Below are positions 4,744 through 41,836 of a stretch of DNA of 46,732 nucleotides, in pieces. Under the pieces are notes generated by a model. That model made no database searches, was not told where the DNA came from, and saw nothing but the letters and a program-made list of their open reading frames with translations. The stretch's first letter is position 1, and each line of letters opens with the position of its first letter. This stretch comes from an uncultured Clostridia bacterium (GTDB lineage Bacteria; Bacillota; Clostridia; RUG12999): positions 1-46,732 of the forward strand of contig CAMNSU010000012.1 of assembly GCA_946555455.1 (NCBI GenBank). Reading direction: 5' to 3'. Both the position numbers and the translations under genes were made by a program.

Positions 4744-7700
4744 TTATTCTCCGTCAATCGCCGCTAAAACGTCCAGCGTTTCGCCATTTTCGCCCATTCT
4801 CCAGATGAAATAGCGGACGCTGTAGTTGTTTCCTGACGGTTTATGCACAATTTCCTCTGCGGTCAGAGAAACCGTCTCACCTGTCCGGAGGGTTACTTGT
4901 TTCGTTTTTGCTGCCATGAGCGACGGCTTGCCGGTGCTGTTGTCATACAGCGCGCTCATTACCAGCGCAGTATCGTCCGCGCTGTCCAGATTCTTTTTAA
5001 TCGTAATGCCTGCCGCCTCGTTTTCAAGGTCGATAAAATAGTCGGAATCCGGACGCAGACCGGTCTGCGTACCCGGTACCACATTTGGCGTCACAAGACG
5101 CGTTCTGTCCGGCGCGCCTTCATAGATGTCCAGATTGTCAATATAGAGCGGTCCGAAGCCCTCCGCTATATTGATGCGGAGCTGTTTCGCCGTATAGGGA
5201 TTGCCGTTCAGGTTGAAGGTCAATTTTCCCGTTTCGCCTGTTGTGGTGTCGGTCACGGTCACAGTCGTGCTTGCAATGCCGGTTGTTGAACCGGTCGTTC
5301 CGACATGCACTTCCACATGGAACCAGTGATTCGGCGTATATTTCAGCGCCGGTTTTATATCTGTTGCATTTGCTTCAAAAATACCGTCTTTTCCAATTTG
5401 GAACGGACGTCTGCTGATTTCCGGAAGCTGAACCATTGCCATGTAATCGCCAACGCTATAGTCCTCTTTGGTGCCAAAGAAATCATAGGCGACCGTATAG
5501 CCCGTTTTATAGTCCGGCACTGTGCCAAGATTGATGTTCAACGCCCCGTTTTCCATTTTCAGAGTGTTGTTTTCTTTGGCACCGCGATAGGCATAGTCTT
5601 TTGCCAGCTTTGCCGTCCAAGTATAGTTTCCGTTTGCGCTGAGCGCAAAATCCTGTTTCTTTCCGGAAGCCGGCAATTCCCATGTTTCAAAGGTGTTTTG
5701 TTCCATGGTTCCTGCCAGTTTATCCACACCAAATGTCGCTGTCAGCGTCACATCTCCTGCCGGCATGGTGATCGTCAACGGATTTTGCGTCTGCTGTGCG
5801 GCGCTCAAGGTGATACCTTCCGCCGTCCAACTTGTAAACTGATACCCTTTGTTTGCCGTTGCCGCTACCGTCACTTGCGTGCCCGCTTCAAATGCCGCGC
5901 CCGCCGTCTGCACTGCCGCGGTTCCCTGTGCGCTGTCAGACGTTGCCGCCGTCACGGAATAGGTTTGCAGACCCGGTGTGCTGTTCGCCACCGTAACCGT
6001 CACTGCCGGATTCGTGCCGCCGTCCATTGCAAAGGTCAATGTATGGGCACCCAATGATAACGTATCCAGATAAGAGGTTGCAATGGTATAGGTATTGCCG
6101 CTTACGGTATAGTCCGTATCTTTTGCCAGTGTCGCACTGCCGTTTTTCAACGCGCTGAAGGTATAATCACCCGCCGCTAACGTTACGGCAACCGCCTGAT
6201 GGTCTGCGTGGCTGGCATATTTATCATAATTTGCCGCCGCAGGCGTTACGGACGCATTCGTTTTTGCCGCAAACGCCGCCGTGAGTGTCACGTCCGCGTC
6301 CGGCATGGTAATGGTCAGCGGATTCTGTTTTTGCTGCTGCGCACTCAAAGTGATTCCTGCTGCTGTCCAGCCCGCGAATTTATAGCCTGCTTTGGGCGTG
6401 GCTTCCACCGTCACGCTTGCGCCCGCTTCAAACCCATTTCCTTCTGTCGTCACTGCCGCGGTTCCCTGCGCACTGTCCGTCGAAGCCGCTGTCACTATGT
6501 GCGTGCCTGCCGGAGGTGGCGTAGTACCGGGCGCAATCGTCGGTGTCACCAGACGTGTTCTGTCCGGCGCGCCTAAATAGAAATCAAGGTTGTCAACATA
6601 AAGGTCAATATCTCTCGCAGTTTGAATCTGGAAATATCCACAGGCTCTTGCATCAACATTAGGACCATAGGTCACAGTTCCTGTTTGCCCCGCTGTGGTA
6701 TCTGTCAGGATACCGGTCGCATTTCCGCTCGCCGGCATATATAATTCTATATGATACCAATGATTTGGTGTATACGCCATTGTCGCTCCGTTGCCGTCTG
6801 TTACCGCCACACCATTAATTGAAAAATTCCCACCGCTCTCTATTGCGAGCGCCCGTGTGCCCACCAAATGAATGAGTTCTAAACGTGCGGGAGCAGTCGG
6901 GAAGGTCCCATAGAAATCATAGGCAAGCGTCCATGCGCCAGATACCCCTTTGGGCGTCAGTCTCATATACAGCGGCTGTCCGGTGCCTTTCAGCAGAAAC
7001 GAGGTGTTTTGTATGGTTCCGTTGTCCGCCTTGTCCATTTGCAGCGTGTTATAGCTGCTGTAAGAATAGGCGCCGTTCGCGCTGCCGGAAACAAATGCTG
7101 TCGGCGGCGCTCCCTCCAAATCCTTCCATGTCTCAAAAGTATTTTGTTCAATCGTTTTGTTGATATTGATGGCAAGACGCGCCGATTTTGAGTCGTTTTT
7201 GCCGTCATATGCTACAATAAACGCCAGTGTAGTCGTTTTTCCTGCCTCTTTGGTATCCAGATAAGAGGTTTTAATCGTATATTTGTTACCGTCCACGGTA
7301 TAATCTGTACCTTCTACCAATACTTCCGCACTGGTTTTCTTAATTTGTACAAACGTATAGTCACCTGTATCCAGCGTCACTTCAATATCTTTGCGGTTCG
7401 GTGAACTTTGGTCATACGTTGCTGTCGTTTTATCAAGACTTGCCGTGCGCAGCGCTTTGAAATTCGCCGTCAGCGTCACGTCGCCTGCCGGCATGTTGAA
7501 TGTGATTTCTTTTGCCGTCGCGTCCGCGAGTGTCACGCCGGTTGCCGTCCAGTTCACAAATCCATATCCGCTGTTTGGCGTTGCCGTAACAGTCACTTCC
7601 GCGCCCTCTTTCACGCTGCCTCCCTCGGGACTTACCGCCACTTTTCCGCCTTCTCCGGCAGTGGCAGTCAATGTATGCGTCGGTGTATTGTCGCTTACCG

Positions 7701-9183
7701 TTACGGTCAGCGTTGGGTCGGCGCCGCCGTCCATGTCAAAGGTCAATGTGTTTTCCCCTGCCGGCAGCGTATCCAAATAGGAGGTTGCAATGGTATAGGT
7801 ATTTCCACTTACAGTATAGTCCACCCCCCCTACAAGAGTTTTTTCGCCGTTTTTCAATGCAGCAAAGGTATAGTCGCCCGGTGTAAGCGTCACTTCAAGC
7901 GCACTGCGGCTCGCGTCGTTCGCGTCATATGTCGCGGTAGTGGGTGTGATGGTCGCGTCCGTTTTTGCCGCAAATGCCGCTTCCAGCGTCACTGCGCCTG
8001 CCGGCATGTCGAACTTGGCAGGGTTTGCCATAGCATCTGTTAATGTCACACCGGTTGCCGTCCAGCCTGTGAATTTATAACCGCTGTTCGGTGTTGCCGT
8101 GACGGTCACTGCCGCGCCCTCTTCAAATTCCGTGCCGGTCGGCGACACGCCTACCGTTCCGCCTGTTCCCGCAGTGGCAGTCAGTGCATATCTCGATACT
8201 TCTACAAAGTTCGCCGTCAGCGTCACATCAGCGCTCTCCACCGCAATCTCCAGCGGATTTGCCTTTTGCTGCTCCGCGCTCAAGGTAATACCTTCCGCTG
8301 TCCAGCCTGTGAAAGCATAGCCGTCTTTCGCTTGCGCAGTCGCTGTGGCAGTTCCACCTGTTTTCAGGTAGTTTTCCGCTTTGTTTGCGCCGCCTGTCAC
8401 AGACACGGTTCCTGCATTTTCATCTGCACTTACGCCCGATACTTTATAAGCAGTGGCATTCGGAATCTGTGCCGCGCGGCTTAAGTTTCCGCCCGCCGTA
8501 CCGGTATAGATTTCAAAGTTGTCCATATACAGTGCACTGGTAGCAGCGTCAGCATATGTCGCAAGGAACACAATCTGTGTGTTTGGTCCCTTTCCATCAG
8601 TAACTGCCCATGATTTATTTGCTGATTTCCCTGTTGCTAAATCTGTTATCGTTACAGCTAATCTATTTTCCACCGGTGTTGCAGCGCTTGACATGCTTGC
8701 CACTACTTTTGCATGATACCAATGTCCCGGTATATAGTCTAAGTCTAAATCCCCTGCATTTGCTTGAAATTTTTTGCTCTTTACATTGATAGAAATCGGT
8801 CTTTTACCAATGGTATTCAACATCATGAATCTCAATTCGGTACCCGATGCATCAGTAGTAGAAAGTTCTCCCTCGCCATAGAGGTCAAACTCTATAGTAT
8901 ACTCCTCTGTCAGTGCGTTTTTTAATCCAACCGTATGGTTTCTTTCCGTCAGCTTCATGCTCTTATTTGTCGCTCCGCCGCCGGTACCTGTCACAAGCTG
9001 CGGCACTCGAATGAGCGTCAGCGTTGCATTGCTGCCGCCAAATTCCATGCCGCTCGACAGTGCCGCCATCTCTTCAAATGTTTCCGATACGATAATTTCT
9101 CCTGCCGCTGTGACCGCGGAAAACGGCAGCGCGGCTGCCAGCATGACAAATACCAATGCCAGCGAACATAATTTGCGTTTCAT
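4744..9183 (-). CDS. large secreted modular protein with jellyroll, InlB B-like and X2 repeats
   Basis: 1,479 residues with a signal peptide (about 1-26, MKRKLCSLALVFVMLAAALP). Three jellyroll (LamG/concanavalin-like) domains lie at about 28-230, 675-890 and 1165-1375. Each contains a GHWYH/NHWYH/NHWFH motif and ends in LY-x-DN, two of them in GAPDRTRLVTP. Between them are five InlB B-repeat-like units (GWTATGVTL type followed by DVTLTA-F) and three X2-like carbohydrate-binding modules (DYTVSGNTYTI-TSYLDTL). No catalytic module, SLH or sortase signal is seen, so it is secreted or held by another protein, perhaps the SLH protein encoded next. The GH88 gene ends 13 bases upstream. The role is inferred to be glycan binding at the cell surface; the repeats may have arisen by internal duplication of a jellyroll-InlB-X2 block. 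Confidence 0.75.
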   Translation of the reverse strand: MKRKLCSLALVFVMLAAALPFSAVTAAGEIIVSETFEEMAALSSGMEFGGSNATLTLIRVPQLVTGTGGGATNKSMKLTERNHTVGLKNALTEEYTIEFDLYGEGELSTTDASGTELRFMMLNTIGKRPISINVKSKKFQANAGDLDLDYIPGHWYHAKVVASMSSAATPVENRLAVTITDLATGKSANKSWAVTDGKGPNTQIVFLATYADAATSALYMDNFEIYTGTAGGNLSRAAQIPNATAYKVSGVSADENAGTVSVTGGANKAENYLKTGGTATATAQAKDGYAFTGWTAEGITLSAEQQKANPLEIAVESADVTLTANFVEVSRYALTATAGTGGTVGVSPTGTEFEEGAAVTVTATPNSGYKFTGWTATGVTLTDAMANPAKFDMPAGAVTLEAAFAAKTDATITPTTATYDANDASRSALEVTLTPGDYTFAALKNGEKTLVGGVDYTVSGNTYTIATSYLDTLPAGENTLTFDMDGGADPTLTVTVSDNTPTHTLTATAGEGGKVAVSPEGGSVKEGAEVTVTATPNSGYGFVNWTATGVTLADATAKEITFNMPAGDVTLTANFKALRTASLDKTTATYDQSSPNRKDIEVTLDTGDYTFVQIKKTSAEVLVEGTDYTVDGNKYTIKTSYLDTKEAGKTTTLAFIVAYDGKNDSKSARLAININKTIEQNTFETWKDLEGAPPTAFVSGSANGAYSYSSYNTLQMDKADNGTIQNTSFLLKGTGQPLYMRLTPKGVSGAWTLAYDFYGTFPTAPARLELIHLVGTRALAIESGGNFSINGVAVTDGNGATMAYTPNHWYHIELYMPASGNATGILTDTTAGQTGTVTYGPNVDARACGYFQIQTARDIDLYVDNLDFYLGAPDRTRLVTPTIAPGTTPPPAGTHIVTAASTDSAQGTAAVTTEGNGFEAGASVTVEATPKAGYKFAGWTAAGITLSAQQQKQNPLTITMPDADVTLTAAFAAKTNASVTPAAANYDKYASHADHQAVAVTLAAGDYTFSALKNGSATLAKDTDYTVSGNTYTIATSYLDTLSLGAHTLTFAMDGGTNPAVTVTVANSTPGLQTYSVTAATSDSAQGTAAVQTAGAAFEAGTQVTVAATANKGYQFTSWTAEGITLSAAQQTQNPLTITMPAGDVTLTATFGVDKLAGTMEQNTFETWELPASGKKQDFALSANGNYTWTAKLAKDYAYRGAKENNTLKMENGALNINLGTVPDYKTGYTVAYDFFGTKEDYSVGDYMAMVQLPEISRRPFQIGKDGIFEANATDIKPALKYTPNHWFHVEVHVGTTGSTTGIASTTVTVTDTTTGETGKLTFNLNGNPYTAKQLRINIAEGFGPLYIDNLDIYEGAPDRTRLVTPNVVPGTQTGLRPDSDYFIDLENEAAGITIKKNLDSADDTALVMSALYDNSTGKPSLMAAKTKQVTLRTGETVSLTAEEIVHKPSGNNYSVRYFIWRMGENGETLDVLAAIDGE

Positions 9184-16351: not shown

Positions 16352-16651
16352 CACGCACGGCAATACGCCGTGCTGCCCCCTTGCAGCATAGCTGCTGCGG
16401 GGCTTCTTGCTAAAATCGTGCCACCGGCACGATTTCTTCACGCAAAAACCTTCTTAAGGTGGGGGTCCTTCCATTTCTATACCAAAAGAGAAAGGGACTC
16501 CCCATTCATGCGCCCAAGGCGCAACCACCAAAAAGCGACCCATGCTTTTTGGTGAGAAGGAGGAGCAAGGCAGCGGGCGGATGATTTATTTTTGCAAAAA
16601 AATAAATCGGAGCAAAGCGAACTTTGCTCCGACGTGGTCGGAGTGACAGGA
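16352..16651 (-). repeat. 300-bp tandem unit 1 next to tRNA-Pro (duplicate of the tRNA 3' flank)
   Basis: This unit is about 93 percent identical to the next 299 bases. It holds a row of hairpins: GCACGGC/GCCGTGC, AATCGTGCC/GGCACGATT, an AAAAAGC/GCTTTTT stem, and at 16608-16631 CGGAGCAAAG-CGAA-CTTTGCTCCG. Its right end (16633-16651) repeats the last 16 bases of the tRNA gene plus CCA and flank, so each unit ends with a piece of tRNA-Pro. Loops and stems differ slightly between copies. No gene is seen; the short frames are shadows. Confidence 0.85.
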
Positions 16652-16950
16652 CACGCACGGCGTATTGCCGTGCTGCCCCCTTGCAGCATAGCTGCTGCGG
16701 GTTTTTTGCTAAAATCGTGCCACTGGCACGATTTCTTCACGCAAAAACCTTCTTAAGGTGGGGGTCCTTTTCATTTCTATACCAAAAGAGAAAGGGACTC
16801 CCCATTCATGCGCCGAAGGCGCACCACCAAAAAGCGACTCGCGCTTTTTGGTGAGAAGGAGGAGCAAGGCAGCGGGCGGATGATTTATTTTTGCAAAAAA
16901 ATAAATCGGAGCAAAGCGAACTTTGCTCCGACGTGGTCGGAGTGACAGGA
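16652..16950 (-). repeat. 300-bp tandem unit 2, ending inside the intact tRNA-Pro gene
   Basis: Second copy, of 299 bases. Its right end is the 3' end of the intact tRNA-Pro, and its hairpin at 16907-16930 acts as the tRNA terminator. In the stem beside it, copy 1 reads CGACCCATGCTTTTT and copy 2 CGACTCGCGCTTTTT, a change that keeps pairing. Confidence 0.85.
16891..16930 (-). terminator. intrinsic terminator of tRNA-Pro
   Basis: On the minus strand a 10-bp perfect stem CGGAGCAAAG/CTTTGCTCCG with a TTCG tetraloop is followed by ATTTATTTTTTT. It starts 3 bases after the tRNA CCA end. The same terminator is present 300 bases further on in unit 1 (16591-16631). Confidence 0.9.
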
Positions 16951-17009
16951 CTTGAACCTGCGGCCTCTTGACCCCCAGTCAAGCACGCTACCAGCTGCGC
17001 CACACCCCG
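16934..17009 (-). tRNA. tRNA-Pro (anticodon GGG)
   Basis: 76 nucleotides including an encoded CCA. The acceptor stem CGGGGTG pairs with CACTCCG (one G-U). The anticodon arm is CTTGA-CTGGGGG-TCAAG, giving anticodon GGG. The T arm contains the usual GGTTCAAGTCC. A leftward promoter precedes it and a terminator follows. Confidence 0.95.
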
Positions 17010-17405: not shown

Positions 17406-17434
17406 TTGCAGCAGTCCTCAGATTATGATACAAT
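17406..17434 (+). promoter_or_regulatory. predicted sigma-A promoter upstream of leader module G
   Basis: TTGCAG (17406-17411), a 17-base spacer, TACAAT (17429-17434). Module G begins 10 bases after the -10 box. Confidence 0.65.
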
Positions 17435-17442
17435 ATATGCAG

Positions 17443-17518
17443 AGCTTTCTCGAAAGGGGGACTTTTTCCGGCTCGTTTTACTCGCCGTCATACCGTCCCC
17501 CTTGTCGGAATCCCCCCG
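17443..17518 (+). ncRNA. candidate structured leader, module G copy 1
   Basis: Begins GCTTTCTCGAAAG (small hairpin), then GGGGGAC pairs with GTCCCCC (17456-17462 with 17495-17501) around an inner hairpin CGGC...GCCG, followed by CTTGTCGGAATCCCCC. It lies at the expected transcript start and 65 bases before the lipoprotein gene. Copy 2 at 38801 is almost identical and also follows a promoter. Confidence 0.55.
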
Positions 17519-19887: not shown

Positions 19888-20136
19888 GGTCATGAAATCT
19901 TCGGACATGCCGCTCCATGGCACGAGTGTATACCAAGAAAAGCAAGCGGCGGATCGGGGCTGAAAGCGGGGGTAGTTCTCCCCAAAAAAAGTAAGAGGGG
20001 GAGGAGCCGTAGGCGACGGAGGACATTTTTAAGGGGAGAACTACCCGGAGCAACCTTGGGGACAATTTCATACCAAAGGATCGGAAGCCTCGCTGCCGCT
20101 GCGTTTCCTAGTCCCTATGCCGCTCCATGGCACGCG
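19888..20136. repeat. composite intergenic repeat locus 3
   Basis: The 364-base gap between trxA and the RNase M5-like gene contains a broken H module (ATGAAATCTTCGG at 19891), a mini-repeat M (19908-19927), a degenerate copy of the conserved purine segment (AAGAAAAGCAAGCGGCGG near 19934), the full nested hairpin C, and another mini-repeat M (20118-20136). No credible gene is present. Confidence 0.7.
19971..20045 (+). repeat. nested hairpin module, copy C
   Basis: Outer arms GGTAGTTCTCCCC/GGGGAGAACTACC (13 bp, perfect), a third arm sequence for the family. Conserved segments AGTAAGAGGGGGAG and CGGAGGACATTTTTAA are kept; the inner palindrome is weak (CCGT...ACGG). Confidence 0.75.
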
Positions 20137-23527: not shown

Positions 23528-24820
23528 ATGAAAATTTTAATCAAAAACGGACGGGTGCTTGACCCGTCGCAAAATATAGACGACGTGATGGACGTGTTCG
23601 TAAAAGACGGCATGATTCACGAAATCGGGCAAGACCTCGGACTGGACGATTTGGAGGATTTGGAGATTATTGATGCGTCCGGCAAAGTGGTATGCCCAGG
23701 CTTCATTGACATGCACGTACATTTGCGCGAACCTGGATTTGAATATAAAGAAACCATTGCAACAGGCACGCGGGCGGCGGCAAAGGGCGGTTTCACGACC
23801 GTTGCTTGTATGCCCAACACCAATCCGGTGATTGACAGTGAATCGGTGGTGAGCTTCATCTTCCAAAAAGCGAAAGAGGAAGGACTGGTCAACGTCTATC
23901 CCATTGGCGCGATTACCAAAGGGCTGAAGGGCGAAGAAATGGCGGAAATCGGCGAACTGAAATTCGCGGGCGTGGTTGCCGTTTCGGACGACGGCCGTCC
24001 GGTGCAGGACGCGGGTATGATGAAAAAAGCCATGATGTATGCCAGCATGTTTGACACGCTGGTGATTTCCCACTGCGAAGAACTGTCTTTGATTGAGGGC
24101 GGTTCCATGAACGAAGGCGCGGTGGCGACAGAACTCGGACTCAAAGGAATTCCGGCGCCGGCAGAGGAATGCATGGTGGCGCGGGACTGTTTGCTGGCGG
24201 GCTATACCGGCGCGCCGCTGCACATTGCGCACGTCAGCACAAAAGGCAGCGTGGAAATCGTGCGTCAGGCAAAAAAGAACGGCGTGAACGTGACCTGCGA
24301 AACCTGCCCGCACTATTTTACGTTGACGGAAGAAAGCGTCAAGGGCTACAACACCAACGCCAAAATGAATCCGCCGCTGCGGACGGAGGAAGACCGGCAG
24401 GCGGTGATTGAAGGGCTGAGGGACGGCACCATTGACGTGATTGTGACCGACCATGCGCCGCACCACGTGGACGAAAAGAACGTGGAATTCGACAAAGCGG
24501 CAAACGGTATCGTGGGACTGGAAACCTCGTTTGCGCTGGGCATGACTTATCTGGTCAAAGCAGGTCATTTGACGCTGCCGCAGCTCATTGCGAAAATGAC
24601 GGTGCGTCCGGCGGAAATTCTGGGACTGAACAAAGGGCGCTTGCAGCCTGACCGTCCGGCGGATATCGTGGTGATTGACCCACTAGCGGAATATGAAATT
24701 GACGTAAACACCTTTGAATCCAAATCCAAAAACTCTCCGTTTGACGGATTTCCGGTGGCAGGAAAGGTGCTCTACACCATTGTGAACGGAAAACTCGTCT
24801 TGCGCGAAGGGATTCTTTAA
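23528..24820 (+). CDS. pyrC: dihydroorotase (type I)
   Basis: 430 residues, 1 base after the pyrB stop region, start ATG 23528 after GGAAGGAGG. Metal-binding motifs are complete: [27 protein letters not shown], and the catalytic Asp in VTDHAPH. CMPNTNP is also typical. It cyclises carbamoyl aspartate to dihydroorotate. The gene is followed by an unusual 473-base repeat-filled gap before pyrF. Confidence 0.97.
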
Positions 24821-24827
24821 ATATTTA

Positions 24828-24894
24828 TCGAAAGGAGGACTAATTCCAGAATGTAAAACATTCTGTCATGCCGTCCCCCTTGTCGAAATCCCCC
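24828..24894 (+). repeat. module G copy 3 (diverged)
   Basis: GGAGGAC pairs with GTCCCCC-like arms around a perfect inner hairpin CAGAATG-TAAAA-CATTCTG (24847-24865) in place of the CGGC...GCCG hairpin of copies 1 and 2. The flanking TTCC, TCA-CCGTCCCCCTTGTC and AATCCCCC are unchanged. No promoter directly upstream. Confidence 0.7.
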
Positions 24895-24908
24895 AAGTGT
24901 CGCTCCGC

Positions 24909-25085: not shown

Positions 25086-25147
25086 GAATTAAAAGTAGTT
25101 CGGTTCCGATTAGTTACCGTAGAACGCTAAAGGGGGCTAATAGCGGA

Positions 25148-25230
25148 GGATATTTACCCCAAGAAAAGTAAGAGGGGGAGGATTTTGACTACGTCAAAAT
25201 CCGGAGGACATTTTCAAGGGGTAAATATCC
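25148..25230 (+). repeat. nested hairpin module, copy E
   Basis: Outer arms GGATATTTACCCC/GGGGTAAATATCC as in copy A, but the inner palindrome is GATTTTGAC-TAC-GTCAAAATC (25181-25201). Confidence 0.8.
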
Positions 25231-25293
25231 GTAGCGCACCTTGGGTAACATTGCTTCAAAAAGTACATTTAAATAGAGAAGGGAAGGGACAAA

Positions 25294-32388: not shown

Positions 32389-32531
32389 ACCTCTCAGACG
32401 CGGGCGTTTCATAAGGAACGCCGCGCGAGCAAACGCGGCTAAAGGGGGCGAAGAGCGAAGGGTATTTTACCCTCTGGGGCACGCGTCCTCAGAAAAAGTA
32501 AGAGGAGGAGAAAATGGGGGCAAGGAGTGTA

Positions 32532-32614
32532 AGATATTTCCCCTAAGAAAAGTAAGAGGAGGAGGATTTTGACTGTGTCAAAATCCGGGGGACATTTTCA
32601 AGGGGGAAATATCT
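32532..32614 (+). repeat. nested hairpin module, copy F
   Basis: Outer arms AGATATTTCCCC/GGGGAAATATCT, inner palindrome GATTTTGAC-TGT-GTCAAAATC (32565-32585). Compared with copy E, outer-arm changes on one side are matched on the other. Confidence 0.8.
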
Positions 32615-32686
32615 GGAGCGACCCTCGGGGGACATTTTTCACGAGGAATATACCACTCCGTGGCACGCGTACCCGTAGCGACAATT

Positions 32687-38764: not shown

Positions 38765-38793
38765 TTGAAATTATTCCGCGGACATGGTATAAT
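38765..38793 (+). promoter_or_regulatory. predicted sigma-A promoter upstream of leader module G copy 2
   Basis: TTGAAA (38765-38770), 17-base spacer, TATAAT (38788-38793). Module G again begins 10 bases after the -10 box, as at 17406. Confidence 0.7.
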
Positions 38794-38800
38794 AGTCACA

Positions 38801-38877
38801 AAGCTTTCTCGAAAGGGGGACTTTTTCCGGCTCGTTTTACTCGCCGTCAAGCCGTCCCCCTTGTCAGAATCCCCCCT
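38801..38877 (+). ncRNA. candidate structured leader, module G copy 2
   Basis: Almost identical to copy 1: CTTTC-TC-GAAAG hairpin, GGGGGAC/GTCCCCC outer stem, CGGC/GCCG inner stem, CTTGTCAGAATCCCCC tail. It lies in the leader of rsmD, about 175 bases before the start codon. Confidence 0.55.
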
Positions 38878-40173: not shown

Positions 40174-40184
40174 TCTTTTAGGGG

Positions 40185-40213
40185 TTGACAAATTACCCAA
40201 AAACGGGTATAAT
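40185..40213 (+). promoter_or_regulatory. perfect sigma-A promoter for antisense RNA, copy 1
   Basis: TTGACA (40185-40190), 17-base spacer, TATAAT (40208-40213): full consensus. Confidence 0.85.
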
Positions 40214-40219
40214 AAATGC

Positions 40220-40315
40220 AGGCAGAGAGTGAACCGTATGAAATCGGTTTGCCGAAATAGTAGTTGTAAAGTAGCCACTATCTTTGGTCGGAGGGCGGCT
40301 ACTTTACGTTTATAG
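40220..40315 (+). ncRNA. candidate antitoxin RNA, copy 1 (3' end uncertain)
   Basis: Expected start near 40220. It contains AACCG/CGGTT and then an 11-bp stem GTAAAGTAGCC/GGCTACTTTAC (40266-40307) whose loop has CTTTGGT, a U-turn type loop seen in antisense RNAs. It overlaps the 3' end of the leftward peptide frame. No T tract marks its end. Confidence 0.5.
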
Positions 40316-40376
40316 AAAATATAATTAGGATGGCTATGATTAAAATAGGAATTCCTAATATATGTACCATAAACAT
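40299..40376 (-). CDS. 25-residue hydrophobic peptide, type I toxin-like, copy 1
   Basis: Starts ATG 40376, with GGGGGTGAT 4 bases upstream. The peptide MFMVHILGIPIL...FSINVK is almost entirely hydrophobic with a single charged end, long enough for one membrane helix. On the mRNA, CCCCC just upstream can pair with GGGGG of the ribosome site, masking it. Its stop codon lies inside the hairpin shared with the opposing RNA. The five differences from copy 2 are all at third codon positions and four are silent. These are features of type I toxins (Fst, BsrG, Ibs and similar). The specific family is not recognised, and toxicity is inferred only. Confidence 0.6.
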   Translation of the reverse strand: MFMVHILGIPILIIAILIIFSINVK

Positions 40377-40442
40377 CACCCCCTCTCTTAGGGTTTGGGG
40401 GCAAACCGTCCTCACACGCACTCTCTCTCCTGCATAACTTAT

Positions 40443-40471
40443 AGTATACCATGTTTCTTTTTATAATTCAA
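40443..40471 (-). promoter_or_regulatory. promoter of peptide gene, copy 1
   Basis: On the minus strand TTGAAT (40466-40471), 17-base spacer, TATACT (40443-40448), giving a leader of about 60 bases. Confidence 0.75.
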
Positions 40472-40512
40472 TATGTTTCTCTTAAAAGTTATGAAATTGT
40501 AATATTTCGGTA

Positions 40513-40541
40513 TTGACAAACTACCCAAAAACAGGTATAAT
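40513..40541 (+). promoter_or_regulatory. perfect sigma-A promoter for antisense RNA, copy 2
   Basis: TTGACA (40513-40518), 17-base spacer, TATAAT (40536-40541). Confidence 0.85.
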
Positions 40542-40547
40542 AAATGC

Positions 40548-40640
40548 AGGTAGAGAGTGAACCGTATGAAATCGGTTTGCCGGAAGGTTGTTAAAATAGC
40601 CGTGACCTTTGGTTGGGGGACGGCTATTTTACGTTCATAG
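40548..40640 (+). ncRNA. candidate antitoxin RNA, copy 2 (3' end uncertain)
   Basis: Same layout as copy 1. The hairpin reads TAAAATAGCCGT/ACGGCTATTTTA; relative to copy 1 a G-C pair has become A-T on both arms, so pairing is kept. Confidence 0.5.
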
Positions 40641-40701
40641 AAAATATAATTAGGATAGCTATGATTAAGATGGGAATTCCTAATATATGTACCATAAACA
40701 T
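40624..40701 (-). CDS. 25-residue hydrophobic peptide, type I toxin-like, copy 2
   Basis: Start ATG 40701 after GGGGGTGAT. Identical to copy 1 except Ile22 to Met. Same masked ribosome site (CCCCC upstream) and same relation to the opposing promoter. Role inferred as for copy 1. Confidence 0.6.
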   Translation of the reverse strand: MFMVHILGIPILIIAILIIFSMNVK

Positions 40702-40766
40702 CACCCCCTTCCTTAGACTTGGGGGCAAACCGTCCTCACACGCACTCTCTTTCCTGCATAACTTAC

Positions 40767-40795
40767 AGTATATCATATTTCTTTTTATAATTCAA
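40767..40795 (-). promoter_or_regulatory. promoter of peptide gene, copy 2
   Basis: On the minus strand TTGAAT (40790-40795), 17-base spacer, TATACT (40767-40772). Confidence 0.75.
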
Positions 40796-40837
40796 TATAG
40801 TTATGAAACTGTAATATAATTGTAAGATATAAAACAA

Positions 40838-40912: not shown

Positions 40913-41365
40913 TTAAAATTTTTCTTCAAATCCCACAAGGTAGTCTAATGACACACCGAACAAGTCCGCAAGTGCAATCAGGCGTTCCACGTTTGGTTCC
41001 CTAGTACCGCGTTCATAATGAATACAACTGAATCGGGACAACAGACCCATTCCTTCAGCCATATCAACCTGTGTCATTTGCTTTTCCTGACGTAATTGTC
41101 GAACGCGTTCCCTAAAGGAAACAACAACTTCTTTATTAAAACGCGAAGAAAGAGTCTTTTTTTCATCAATTCGCCCTAACAAATAATCTAACGAAATATC
41201 AAGCCGAACAGCAATTTTTCGTAAATCGGCAATACATGGATAAGCAAGTCCTTTCTCATAGTTTGGATAATTTGTCGGCTTAATCCCAAGATATTCTCCA
41301 AATTTCCTCTGCGACAGTCCTGCTTCGTTCCGAAAATCACGTAGACGTTGAGCAAATAAATTCAT
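40913..41365 (-). CDS. double-HTH XRE regulator, second of a tandem pair
   Basis: 150 residues with two complete Cro/CI-type helix-turn-helix domains in one chain: residues about 6-60 (RLRDFRNEAGLSQRKFGEYLGI...NYEKG) and about 83-145 (RVRQLRQEKQMTQVDMAEGMG...HYERG). Each ends in the same DISLDYLLG/GVSLDYLVG pattern. It starts 3 bases after the preceding gene's stop codon (TAA ATC ATG), with GGAGAG inside that gene, so translation is coupled. No ligand or peptidase domain is seen. It may act on nearby promoters; targets unknown. Confidence 0.85.
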   Translation of the reverse strand: MNLFAQRLRDFRNEAGLSQRKFGEYLGIKPTNYPNYEKGLAYPCIADLRKIAVRLDISLDYLLGRIDEKKTLSSRFNKEVVVSFRERVRQLRQEKQMTQVDMAEGMGLLSRFSCIHYERGTREPNVERLIALADLFGVSLDYLVGFEEKF

Positions 41366-41368
41366 GAT

Positions 41369-41812
41369 TTACTCTCCTCTTCCCAGTAGTTTATCCAGAC
41401 TAATTCCAAAAAAATCTGAAAGTTCAATAACTTTGGTATAATGTGGCATAGCTTCCTGCAATTCATAAGATTGATACGTCCGTTCTTCCACTCCAAGGAA
41501 TTCAGCCATTTCTTTTTGTGTTTTTCCTTTTTTCTCTCGTTCTTTTTTAATTGACCATGCAAACATTTCTTGCAAATCTCCTACAAAATGCTTTGTGTTT
41601 TCACTTGGTGTAGTTACTTTTCCGCAAAGGAAATCTAGCGATACATCTAAAACATCTGCAATTCTTGCCATTTTTATAATGGATGGTTTAACCTTACCAT
41701 ACTCATAATTCTGGTAAGTTGTTTCTTTCAATCCAGCCAATTCTGCTACATTCTTTTGGGATAATTGTTTTCGTTTTCTCGCTTCTATGAGACGGCTTGA
41801 AAATATATCCAT
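41369..41812 (-). CDS. double-HTH XRE regulator, first of a tandem pair
   Basis: 147 residues from ATG 41812: AGGAG is 8 bases upstream of it, whereas the in-frame GTG at 41821 overlaps that site. Two HTH_XRE domains are seen (RLIEARKRKQLSQKNVAELAG...NYEYG and SIKKEREKKGKTQKEMAEFLG...SYELQ), with LDVSLDFLCG and FGISLDKLLG after them. It is a paralog of the next gene, so duplication happened both within a chain and of the gene. The upstream region has a strong divergent promoter and TAGTTA repeats that could be operators. Confidence 0.85.
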   Translation of the reverse strand: MDIFSSRLIEARKRKQLSQKNVAELAGLKETTYQNYEYGKVKPSIIKMARIADVLDVSLDFLCGKVTTPSENTKHFVGDLQEMFAWSIKKEREKKGKTQKEMAEFLGVEERTYQSYELQEAMPHYTKVIELSDFFGISLDKLLGRGE

Positions 41813-41836
41813 TTTTTTCACTCCTAAAAAAAATGC

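Follow-up and report, generated by a model that had tools for sequence, protein, structure and literature searches.

The window, a stretch of 46,732 nucleotides from an uncultured Clostridia bacterium, carries two modules in tandem, at 40185-40471 and 40513-40795. Both are very probably type I toxin-antitoxin modules belonging to a new family, with their transcripts and their toxicity inferred. An earlier note, made from the DNA letters alone, had read the copies as type I toxin-antitoxin-like modules. This reading is supported and stands up to all the computational tests tried, although transcription and toxicity remain inferences.

Organization of the two modules

The two window copies are direct repeats, 324-328 bp apart and 87-91% identical. 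The location of promoters, direct repeats and shared hairpins confirms the tandem pair that the earlier note described, but the pair is merely two among at least 12 copies in the genome.

Copy 1 begins with a rightward antitoxin promoter, TTGACA-17-TATAAT (40185-40213, plus strand), which is kept in relatives. The rightward promoters of both copies match the consensus at 12 of 12 positions. The predicted antitoxin RNA 1 extends from about 40220 to about 40311 on the plus strand, with no transcript data available. R1, a covariance model of the antisense RNA built from an alignment of 11 copies in three genomes, matches this strand at 40208-40307 with 98.8 bits. A 5' hairpin, GGCA...AACCG/CGGTT.TGCC, lies at 40221-40253 of the plus strand. 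Its core, CGGTTTGCC (40245-40253), is identical to the core in the toxin leader. A linker (40254-40265, plus strand), which diverges strongly between copies, leads to a shared bidirectional terminator-like hairpin (40266-40307, both strands). The loop of this hairpin (40277-40296) forms the main part of a proposed pair-specific address and contains UUUG, a YUNR motif, on the antitoxin strand (40283-40286).

The toxin promoter of copy 1, TTGAAT-17-TATACT, is read from 40471 to 40443 on the minus strand. The 5' part of toxin mRNA 1 (40400-40433, minus strand) resembles the antitoxin 5' end, with GCAGGAGAGAGAGTG at 40419-40433 and the core at 40400-40408. The ribosome site GGGGG (40379-40383) lies within 40379-40404 of the same strand. 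The masking arm UUGCCCCC (40397-40404, minus strand) pairs with GGGGGUGA over this site (folding z -3.7). The toxin-like peptide frame, MVHILGIPILIIAILIIFSINVK plus stop, occupies 40299-40370 on the minus strand and would encode 25 residues if it started at 40376. Its stop codon sits in the first arm of the strong hairpin that also ends the opposing RNA. Inverted repeats at 40235-40253 and 40400-40418 flank the module.

Copy 2 has the same elements. The antitoxin promoter (TTGACA-17-TATAAT) is at 40513-40541 on the plus strand and precedes the predicted antitoxin RNA 2 at 40548-40635 (R1 match 40536-40632, 90.1 bits), with its 5' hairpin at 40549-40581. The shared terminator-like hairpin spans 40592-40631 on both strands. 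On the minus strand lie the peptide frame, MVHILGIPILIIAILIIFSMNVK plus stop (40624-40695), the 5' part of toxin mRNA 2 (40724-40758) with the core CGGTTTGCC at 40724-40732, and the toxin promoter TTGAAT-17-TATACT, read from 40795 to 40767. An equivalent masking pairing is found in the leader (folding z -2.2).

Several details of the earlier note hold. It had described a CCCCC-type masking of the ribosome site, which is met by the leader pairing in both copies. The translations bear out five differences between the two frames, all at third codon positions, four of them silent and one exchanging I and M. The compensated base pair in the shared hairpin is a change from G-C to A-U between the copies. 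Other details need correction. The frame is hydrophobic, but the length given, 25 residues, is doubtful. Judging by ribosome-site spacing and alignment with relatives, the second ATG is the probable start, which gives a peptide of 23 residues, MVHILGIPILIIAILIIFS(I/M)NVK. The U-turn loop of the shared hairpin is present as YUNR in the antisense RNA, but not in the peptide mRNA.

A large family in gut Clostridia

Three further copies, on two contigs, came to light when the window's genome was searched at the DNA level. At E<=0.01, R1 detects 12 loci in this genome, while two further genomes of the genus have 10 and 8. The earlier note had proposed a covariance search in Clostridia; R1 has matches at E<=1e-3 in 56 of 391 sampled Clostridia genomes. 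Among 298 other genomes sampled across the phylum, only four have matches at E<=1e-4. A 2.4-Mb Clostridia genome (G145) contains 29 matches at E<=0.1, many of them in tandem.

A pattern of 29 nt, representing the most frequent antitoxin 5' end, occurs in 66 stretches of named gut Clostridia/Oscillospiraceae assemblies, and R1 matches nearly all of these over the full model length. The cultured gut species Monoglobus pectinilyticus has four tandem modules (NZ_OY725742.1, 153339-154507). No gene is listed over these four copies in the PLSDB gene table, which is incomplete.

Viral contigs gave two matches to a sister type and none to the window type, and nothing beyond the Monoglobus record and trivial phage matches came from plasmid and phage collections. 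Because these collections yielded so few matches, the family appears to be mainly chromosomal, and carriage by phages or plasmids was rejected.

No Rfam covariance model reaches its gathering score, the matches to MIR530 and rli28 being far below their cut-offs. The peptide, which the earlier note could not name, indeed matches no family: none is found in Pfam or NCBIfam at cut-off, and PHROG gives no convincing match, these models being weak on such short peptides. No description of the family was found in the open-access literature; most subscription papers and preprints were outside the scope of that search. The modules thus belong to a large and apparently undescribed family in gut Clostridia. 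If the toxin-antitoxin assignment is true, these bacteria have a large additional family of very small toxin genes. According to a 2019 review, experimentally validated type I systems in Clostridia are known only from C. difficile.

Conservation of the peptide, the hairpin and leader masking

The layout seen in the window recurs in the family. When the antitoxin part is kept constant, a ribosome site plus a frame of 18-32 codons whose stop lies 5-7 nt inside the hairpin is found at 94 of 128 distinct loci, compared with 0.93 in shuffles. The peptides share the plan M-x-YI-hydrophobic-(S/T)-I-K-x-K. Over 27 disjoint pairs their pN/pS is 0.27; the neutral simulation has a median of 0.66 and a minimum of 0.43 in 1000 runs. 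The peptide is under purifying selection.

The shared hairpin is supported by covariation. When 40 dissimilar sequences are put through a plain MAFFT alignment, both partners have changed in 10 of the 11 pairs, and 95.9% of the cells are paired, which is reached in 0 of 500 shuffles. The ribosome site is also masked across the family, with a mean unpaired probability of 0.14 in 85 modules versus 0.34 with shuffled leaders. Masking is weaker in window copy 1, where the gain is slight (0.34 versus 0.39 with a shuffled leader). YUNR is present in all 68 antitoxin loops (47.7 when shuffled). In toxin loops it occurs in 36 of 68 (36.3 when shuffled), no more often than by chance. The tests of frame, selection, covariation and masking, like that of gene loss described below, are independent of how the loci were found.

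In a subgroup of loci (L076, L108, L116, L119, L129, L130, L131, L138, L143 and L146), the frame that follows the ribosome site is long and polar (MKSK...). The hydrophobic stretch, with an end such as ...IKAQ, is in a different frame and has no clear start codon. These loci may use translational coupling or start in an unusual way.

The 5' hairpins of the two RNAs

The toxin and antitoxin RNAs of a module carry the same 5' hairpin. In 102 of 126 loci the core CGGTTNGCC occurs at the expected distance on the toxin strand, compared with 3.1 in shuffles and 8 on the other strand. Within a module, the toxin and antitoxin cores agree at 9.1 of 10 positions, against 7.8 between modules. The two cores change together between subfamilies, as CGGTTTGCC, CGGTTAGCC, CGGTTATGCC or CGGCTCGCC. 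On the 5' side of the core, same-sense likeness is higher for the cognate pair than for the reversed one in 82 of 83 cases and than for non-cognate pairs in 76 of 83. The reverse-complement likeness of the two 5' parts is low. In the sister type, both RNAs fold as GGYA-A-GACY...GGUU-A-UGCC. These counts are not independent events, since related modules share ancestry. The earlier note had pointed to related starts of the two RNAs in the window; they appear as inverted repeats in the DNA, and the same-sense likeness extends to the whole family.

Because the two ends are identical in the same sense, they cannot pair directly, but pairing is possible by exchange of hairpin arms. The arm-exchange duplex has a predicted energy of -19.3 kcal/mol, compared with -15.6 kcal/mol for shuffled sequences. 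Cognate 5' pairing beats non-cognate pairing in only 47 of 84 cases, which is no better, and pair-specific 5' pairing finds no support. The 5' ends thus confer no specificity, and any contact between them would be family-wide. Binding of a common protein or stabilisation of the 5' end is as likely a role for the hairpin as arm exchange.

The identical ends may also have no role in silencing, either as a mere trace of promoter and leader duplication or as a simple stabiliser of the 5' end. We take this possibility seriously while leaning somewhat against it. The identity is in the same sense rather than complementary and the duplex strength is not pair-specific, as would suit ends without such a role; however, the cores change jointly in separate subfamilies, and this requires ongoing selection or conversion. 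How type I RNAs meet is a question that the shared 5' hairpin makes sharp and testable.

Divergence of the loop and linker between co-resident copies

Tandem copies are nearly identical in the leader, the frame and the antitoxin 5' end, but differ in the hairpin loop, its second arm and the linker. The copies in one related genome (G002) differ at 1 of 153 positions in leader and frame, 0 of 56 in the antitoxin 5' end and 13 of 43 in loop and linker. The corresponding counts for a Monoglobus-type pair are 1 of 153, 0 of 52 and 19 of 41. Over eight tandem loci from several genera, loop and linker differ at 120 of 358 columns (33%), third codon positions at 11 of 175 (6%) and promoter spacers at 12 of 136. 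By part, the divergence of tandem copies is 2% in the first arm, 33% in the loop, 21% in the second arm and 42% in the linker. The columns include gaps and are not independent. In addition, the antitoxin 5' end of loci found by the 29-nt pattern is conserved by data selection, so its comparison carries little weight.

Loop and linker diverge between copies that share a cell, which a pair-specific address would predict. It is possible that the linker is situated past the toxin terminator, and its divergence therefore need not belong to an address.

The main alternative is gene conversion that homogenises the rest of the module and spares the hairpin, which either escapes conversion or mutates faster, so that the tandem differences are unselected. 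The low third-position divergence of tandem copies is compatible with conversion, and window copy 2 and its G002 counterpart are also divergent in the loop. However, nine orthologous pairs differ at only 25 of 371 loop and linker columns (6.7%), with 10 of 190 third codon positions different. Orthologues at equal third-position divergence are thus far more alike in loop and linker, which is not the behavior of a plain fast-mutating stretch. The tandem pattern is, moreover, found at eight loci in several genera. We consider it less likely than not that the differences are unselected.

An address in the loop and linker could be combined with the shared 5' hairpin in a two-part recognition code, with the identical 5' hairpin as a common tag and the terminator loop and linker as the private address of each co-resident copy. 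This proposal is tentative, and the odds seem to us to be against it. If true, it would allow dozens of near-identical modules, such as the 29 matches in one genome, to coexist without cross-silencing, with either a single factor or arm exchange reading the common tag. The tandem arrays constitute a natural experiment on pair-specific antisense recognition.

Asymmetry of toxin and antitoxin loss

R2, a covariance model of the toxin leader made from sister-type leaders only, was run on 22 genomes and found 47 leader matches. The model also recognises the window leaders, on which it was not trained (40353-40454, minus strand, E 9e-4; 40678-40758, minus strand, E 0.05). None of the 46 checkable toxin leaders, those R2 matches with enough contig, lacks an antisense gene. 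The leader at G001:C201 runs off its contig, and G002:C92 shows its antitoxin only in part. The leaders were sought in genomes already known to have antitoxins; the test itself is made per locus. Candidates for toxins without an antitoxin (L184, L188, L201, L203, L209, G323:C21 and G055:C28) were rejected, as the antitoxin was found in each case, that of L201 being truncated where the contig ends.

It is common for an antitoxin to have no toxin or a broken one (L048, L049, L060, L061, L063 and L064). At L010:4274-4556 (G000:C10), the toxin frame is interrupted by a MITE-like insert of about 290 bp that bears terminal inverted repeats (TACCCTCTCTTGACAA), while the antitoxin is intact. The earlier note had counted relatives with a broken peptide frame as a refutation. 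Such relatives exist, but only with the antisense gene kept, as toxin-antitoxin logic allows. The asymmetry of loss is the pattern expected if the peptide is intolerable without its antitoxin.

The same observations bear on whether the peptide is a toxin at all. It could be a small regulatory membrane peptide, for example a modulator of a membrane protein, with its dose set by the antisense RNA. Toxicity has not been measured, and the peptides are conserved and kept in many copies, as a regulator might be. This explanation is improbable, however, as it does not fit the common antitoxin-only loci set against the lack of antitoxin-less toxin loci, nor the tightly masked leader, and many near-identical copies per genome with different addresses suit addiction-like modules better.

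That the modules are small MITE-like mobile elements, with the related 5' ends as terminal inverted repeats, can be dismissed with little hesitation despite the flanking inverted repeats and the many dispersed copies, since conserved promoters lie outside the repeats, dispersed copies far diverged (68-76%) keep their coding and structure, corresponding copies in related genomes are alike along their length, and a MITE-like insert instead disrupts one copy. An invertible segment was also rejected, all aligned copies having one orientation between the promoters.

Genomic surroundings

Two XRE-type double helix-turn-helix genes (40913-41365 and 41369-41821, minus strand) lie upstream of toxin 2 on the toxin's strand. 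XRE-type genes make up 23 of 995 ORFs within about 1.2 kb of modules and 1 of 1143 ORFs far from them. They adjoin most modules of the genus (L009, L027, L028, L048, L049, L051, L053-L055 and L060), mostly on the toxin's strand and upstream of the toxin.

In CreTA, a CRISPR-regulated toxin-antitoxin system, the antitoxin derives from CRISPR-like repeats. No CRISPR repeats are present at the window's modules, and no clear module match lies beside the arrays of the window's genome (contigs C51, C101 and C138). A CRISPR/CreTA reading was rejected, as only one locus of a related genome (L028, G001:C377) has modules among CRISPR repeats. There, at 6661-8337, three and a half tandem modules alternate with the repeats (ATTTCAATCCACGCGACCC...GGGTCGCGAC). 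Degenerate repeats are also present at L028, one of them shortly upstream of antitoxin promoters. CreTA-like use of the repeats cannot be excluded for that locus.

CRISPR arrays with a type I-C-like repeat are located at L173:6594-9801 (G000:C101, about 48 repeats) and L172:18152-19201 (G000:C51). Two repeat forms, GAGCCCTTCACAGGGCTCGAC and GCGACCCTCACGGGTCGCGAC, are intermingled in the C51 array. The window contains further repeats. A tandem repeat of about 299 bp (16400-16951), up to 98% identical, adjoins a tRNA (16937-17009). One kind of dispersed intergenic repeat (CGAAAGGGGGACTTTTTCCGG...) is found at 17425-17517, 24803-24895 and 38784-38876. A second kind (GGGGGC...AAGTAAGAGGGGGAGGA) occurs at 2659-2750, 19949-20039, 25126-25252 and 32438-32648, and also at the end of G002:C85, near modules.

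Proposed mechanism

On the toxin-antitoxin reading, the leftward mRNA would encode a single-helix membrane peptide of 20-32 residues, which is probably growth-inhibiting when overproduced. A hairpin in its leader would hide the ribosome site until contact with the antitoxin. The rightward RNA, from the stronger promoter, would be the antitoxin. A single two-way terminator hairpin, which contains the stop of the toxin frame, is predicted to end both converging RNAs.

Computation supports the layout, the conserved frame, the covariation, the masking of the ribosome site, the shared 5' hairpins, the address divergence and the lack of toxins without antitoxin. The transcripts, the toxicity, the order of the RNA contacts and the role of the 5' hairpin are inferred. 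The U-turn loop of the antitoxin probably kisses the cognate toxin hairpin first, with the loop, and perhaps the linker, serving as a pair-specific address. Pairing may then spread along the hairpin and perhaps reach the 5' hairpins. The identical 5' hairpins might provide a second, family-generic contact by arm exchange, or a common binding or stability element. The duplexed toxin mRNA would be silenced or degraded.

Against this reading, there are no transcript, toxicity or rescue data, the XRE genes that accompany many copies could point to a further layer or a different role, and arm exchange remains a model only.

Comparison with known type I systems

At the sequence level, the modules meet the class-level type I criterion of a small hydrophobic peptide gene overlapped by an antisense gene. 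In Fst/par-pAD1 (RNA I/RNA II) of Enterococcus faecalis, convergent promoters are combined with a two-way terminator and a masked ribosome site (PMC7472228). The Fst/Ldr superfamily is marked by a PxxxG(C) membrane-helix motif and by direct repeats, DRa and DRb, which are crossed by both RNAs (PMC7472228). The modules resemble Fst/par-pAD1 in their convergent promoters, shared two-way terminator, small hydrophobic peptide and masking leader hairpin, as well as in the U-turn loop and the proposed second contact near the 5' ends (PMC7472228). Unlike Fst, the peptides have 20-32 residues, match no toxin model, and lack both the PxxxG(C) motif and a long charged C-terminal tail. A copy contains no direct repeats DRa/DRb but inverted repeats and same-sense 5' hairpins, and the U-turn is in the antitoxin. 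The earlier note's comparison to Fst/BsrG-type systems therefore applies to the plan of the layout, but not to the PxxxG motif, the direct repeats or the Pfam toxin models.

TxpA/RatA and BsrG/SR4 of Bacillus subtilis likewise have a convergent toxin mRNA and antisense RNA that overlap at the 3' end (PMC4147584). The family's peptides are about half the length of those toxins and unrelated to them by model search, which gave no match to TxpA/BsrG-type family sequence models. The overlap here is the terminator hairpin of some 40 nt, compared with about 75-120 nt in TxpA/BsrG.

The type I modules of Clostridioides difficile (CD2517.1-RCd8, CD0956.2-RCd10 and others) have antitoxins that act mostly on their own toxin (PMC6563280). 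Their toxins, of 34-59 residues with charged lysine-rich tails, were described as without homology to others (PMC6563280). Both sets of modules are from Clostridia, convergent and multicopy, and some of the C. difficile ones lie beside CRISPR arrays (PMC6563280); the related locus L028 is within an array, whereas the window's modules are not. The family's peptides miss the size and charged-tail criteria of the C. difficile toxins, although the sequences were not compared directly.

Duplicated type I modules are also known in E. coli. In Zor/Orz, a short recognition region, V1 of OrzO and OrzP, discriminates between duplicated copies, and recognition domains are known for Ibs/Sib (PMC3919570, PMC4147584). 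The orz genes are divergent, and the peptides and layout differ from those described here. The Sib RNAs span the whole ibs frame, whereas in the present family the variable region consists of the terminator loop and the linker.
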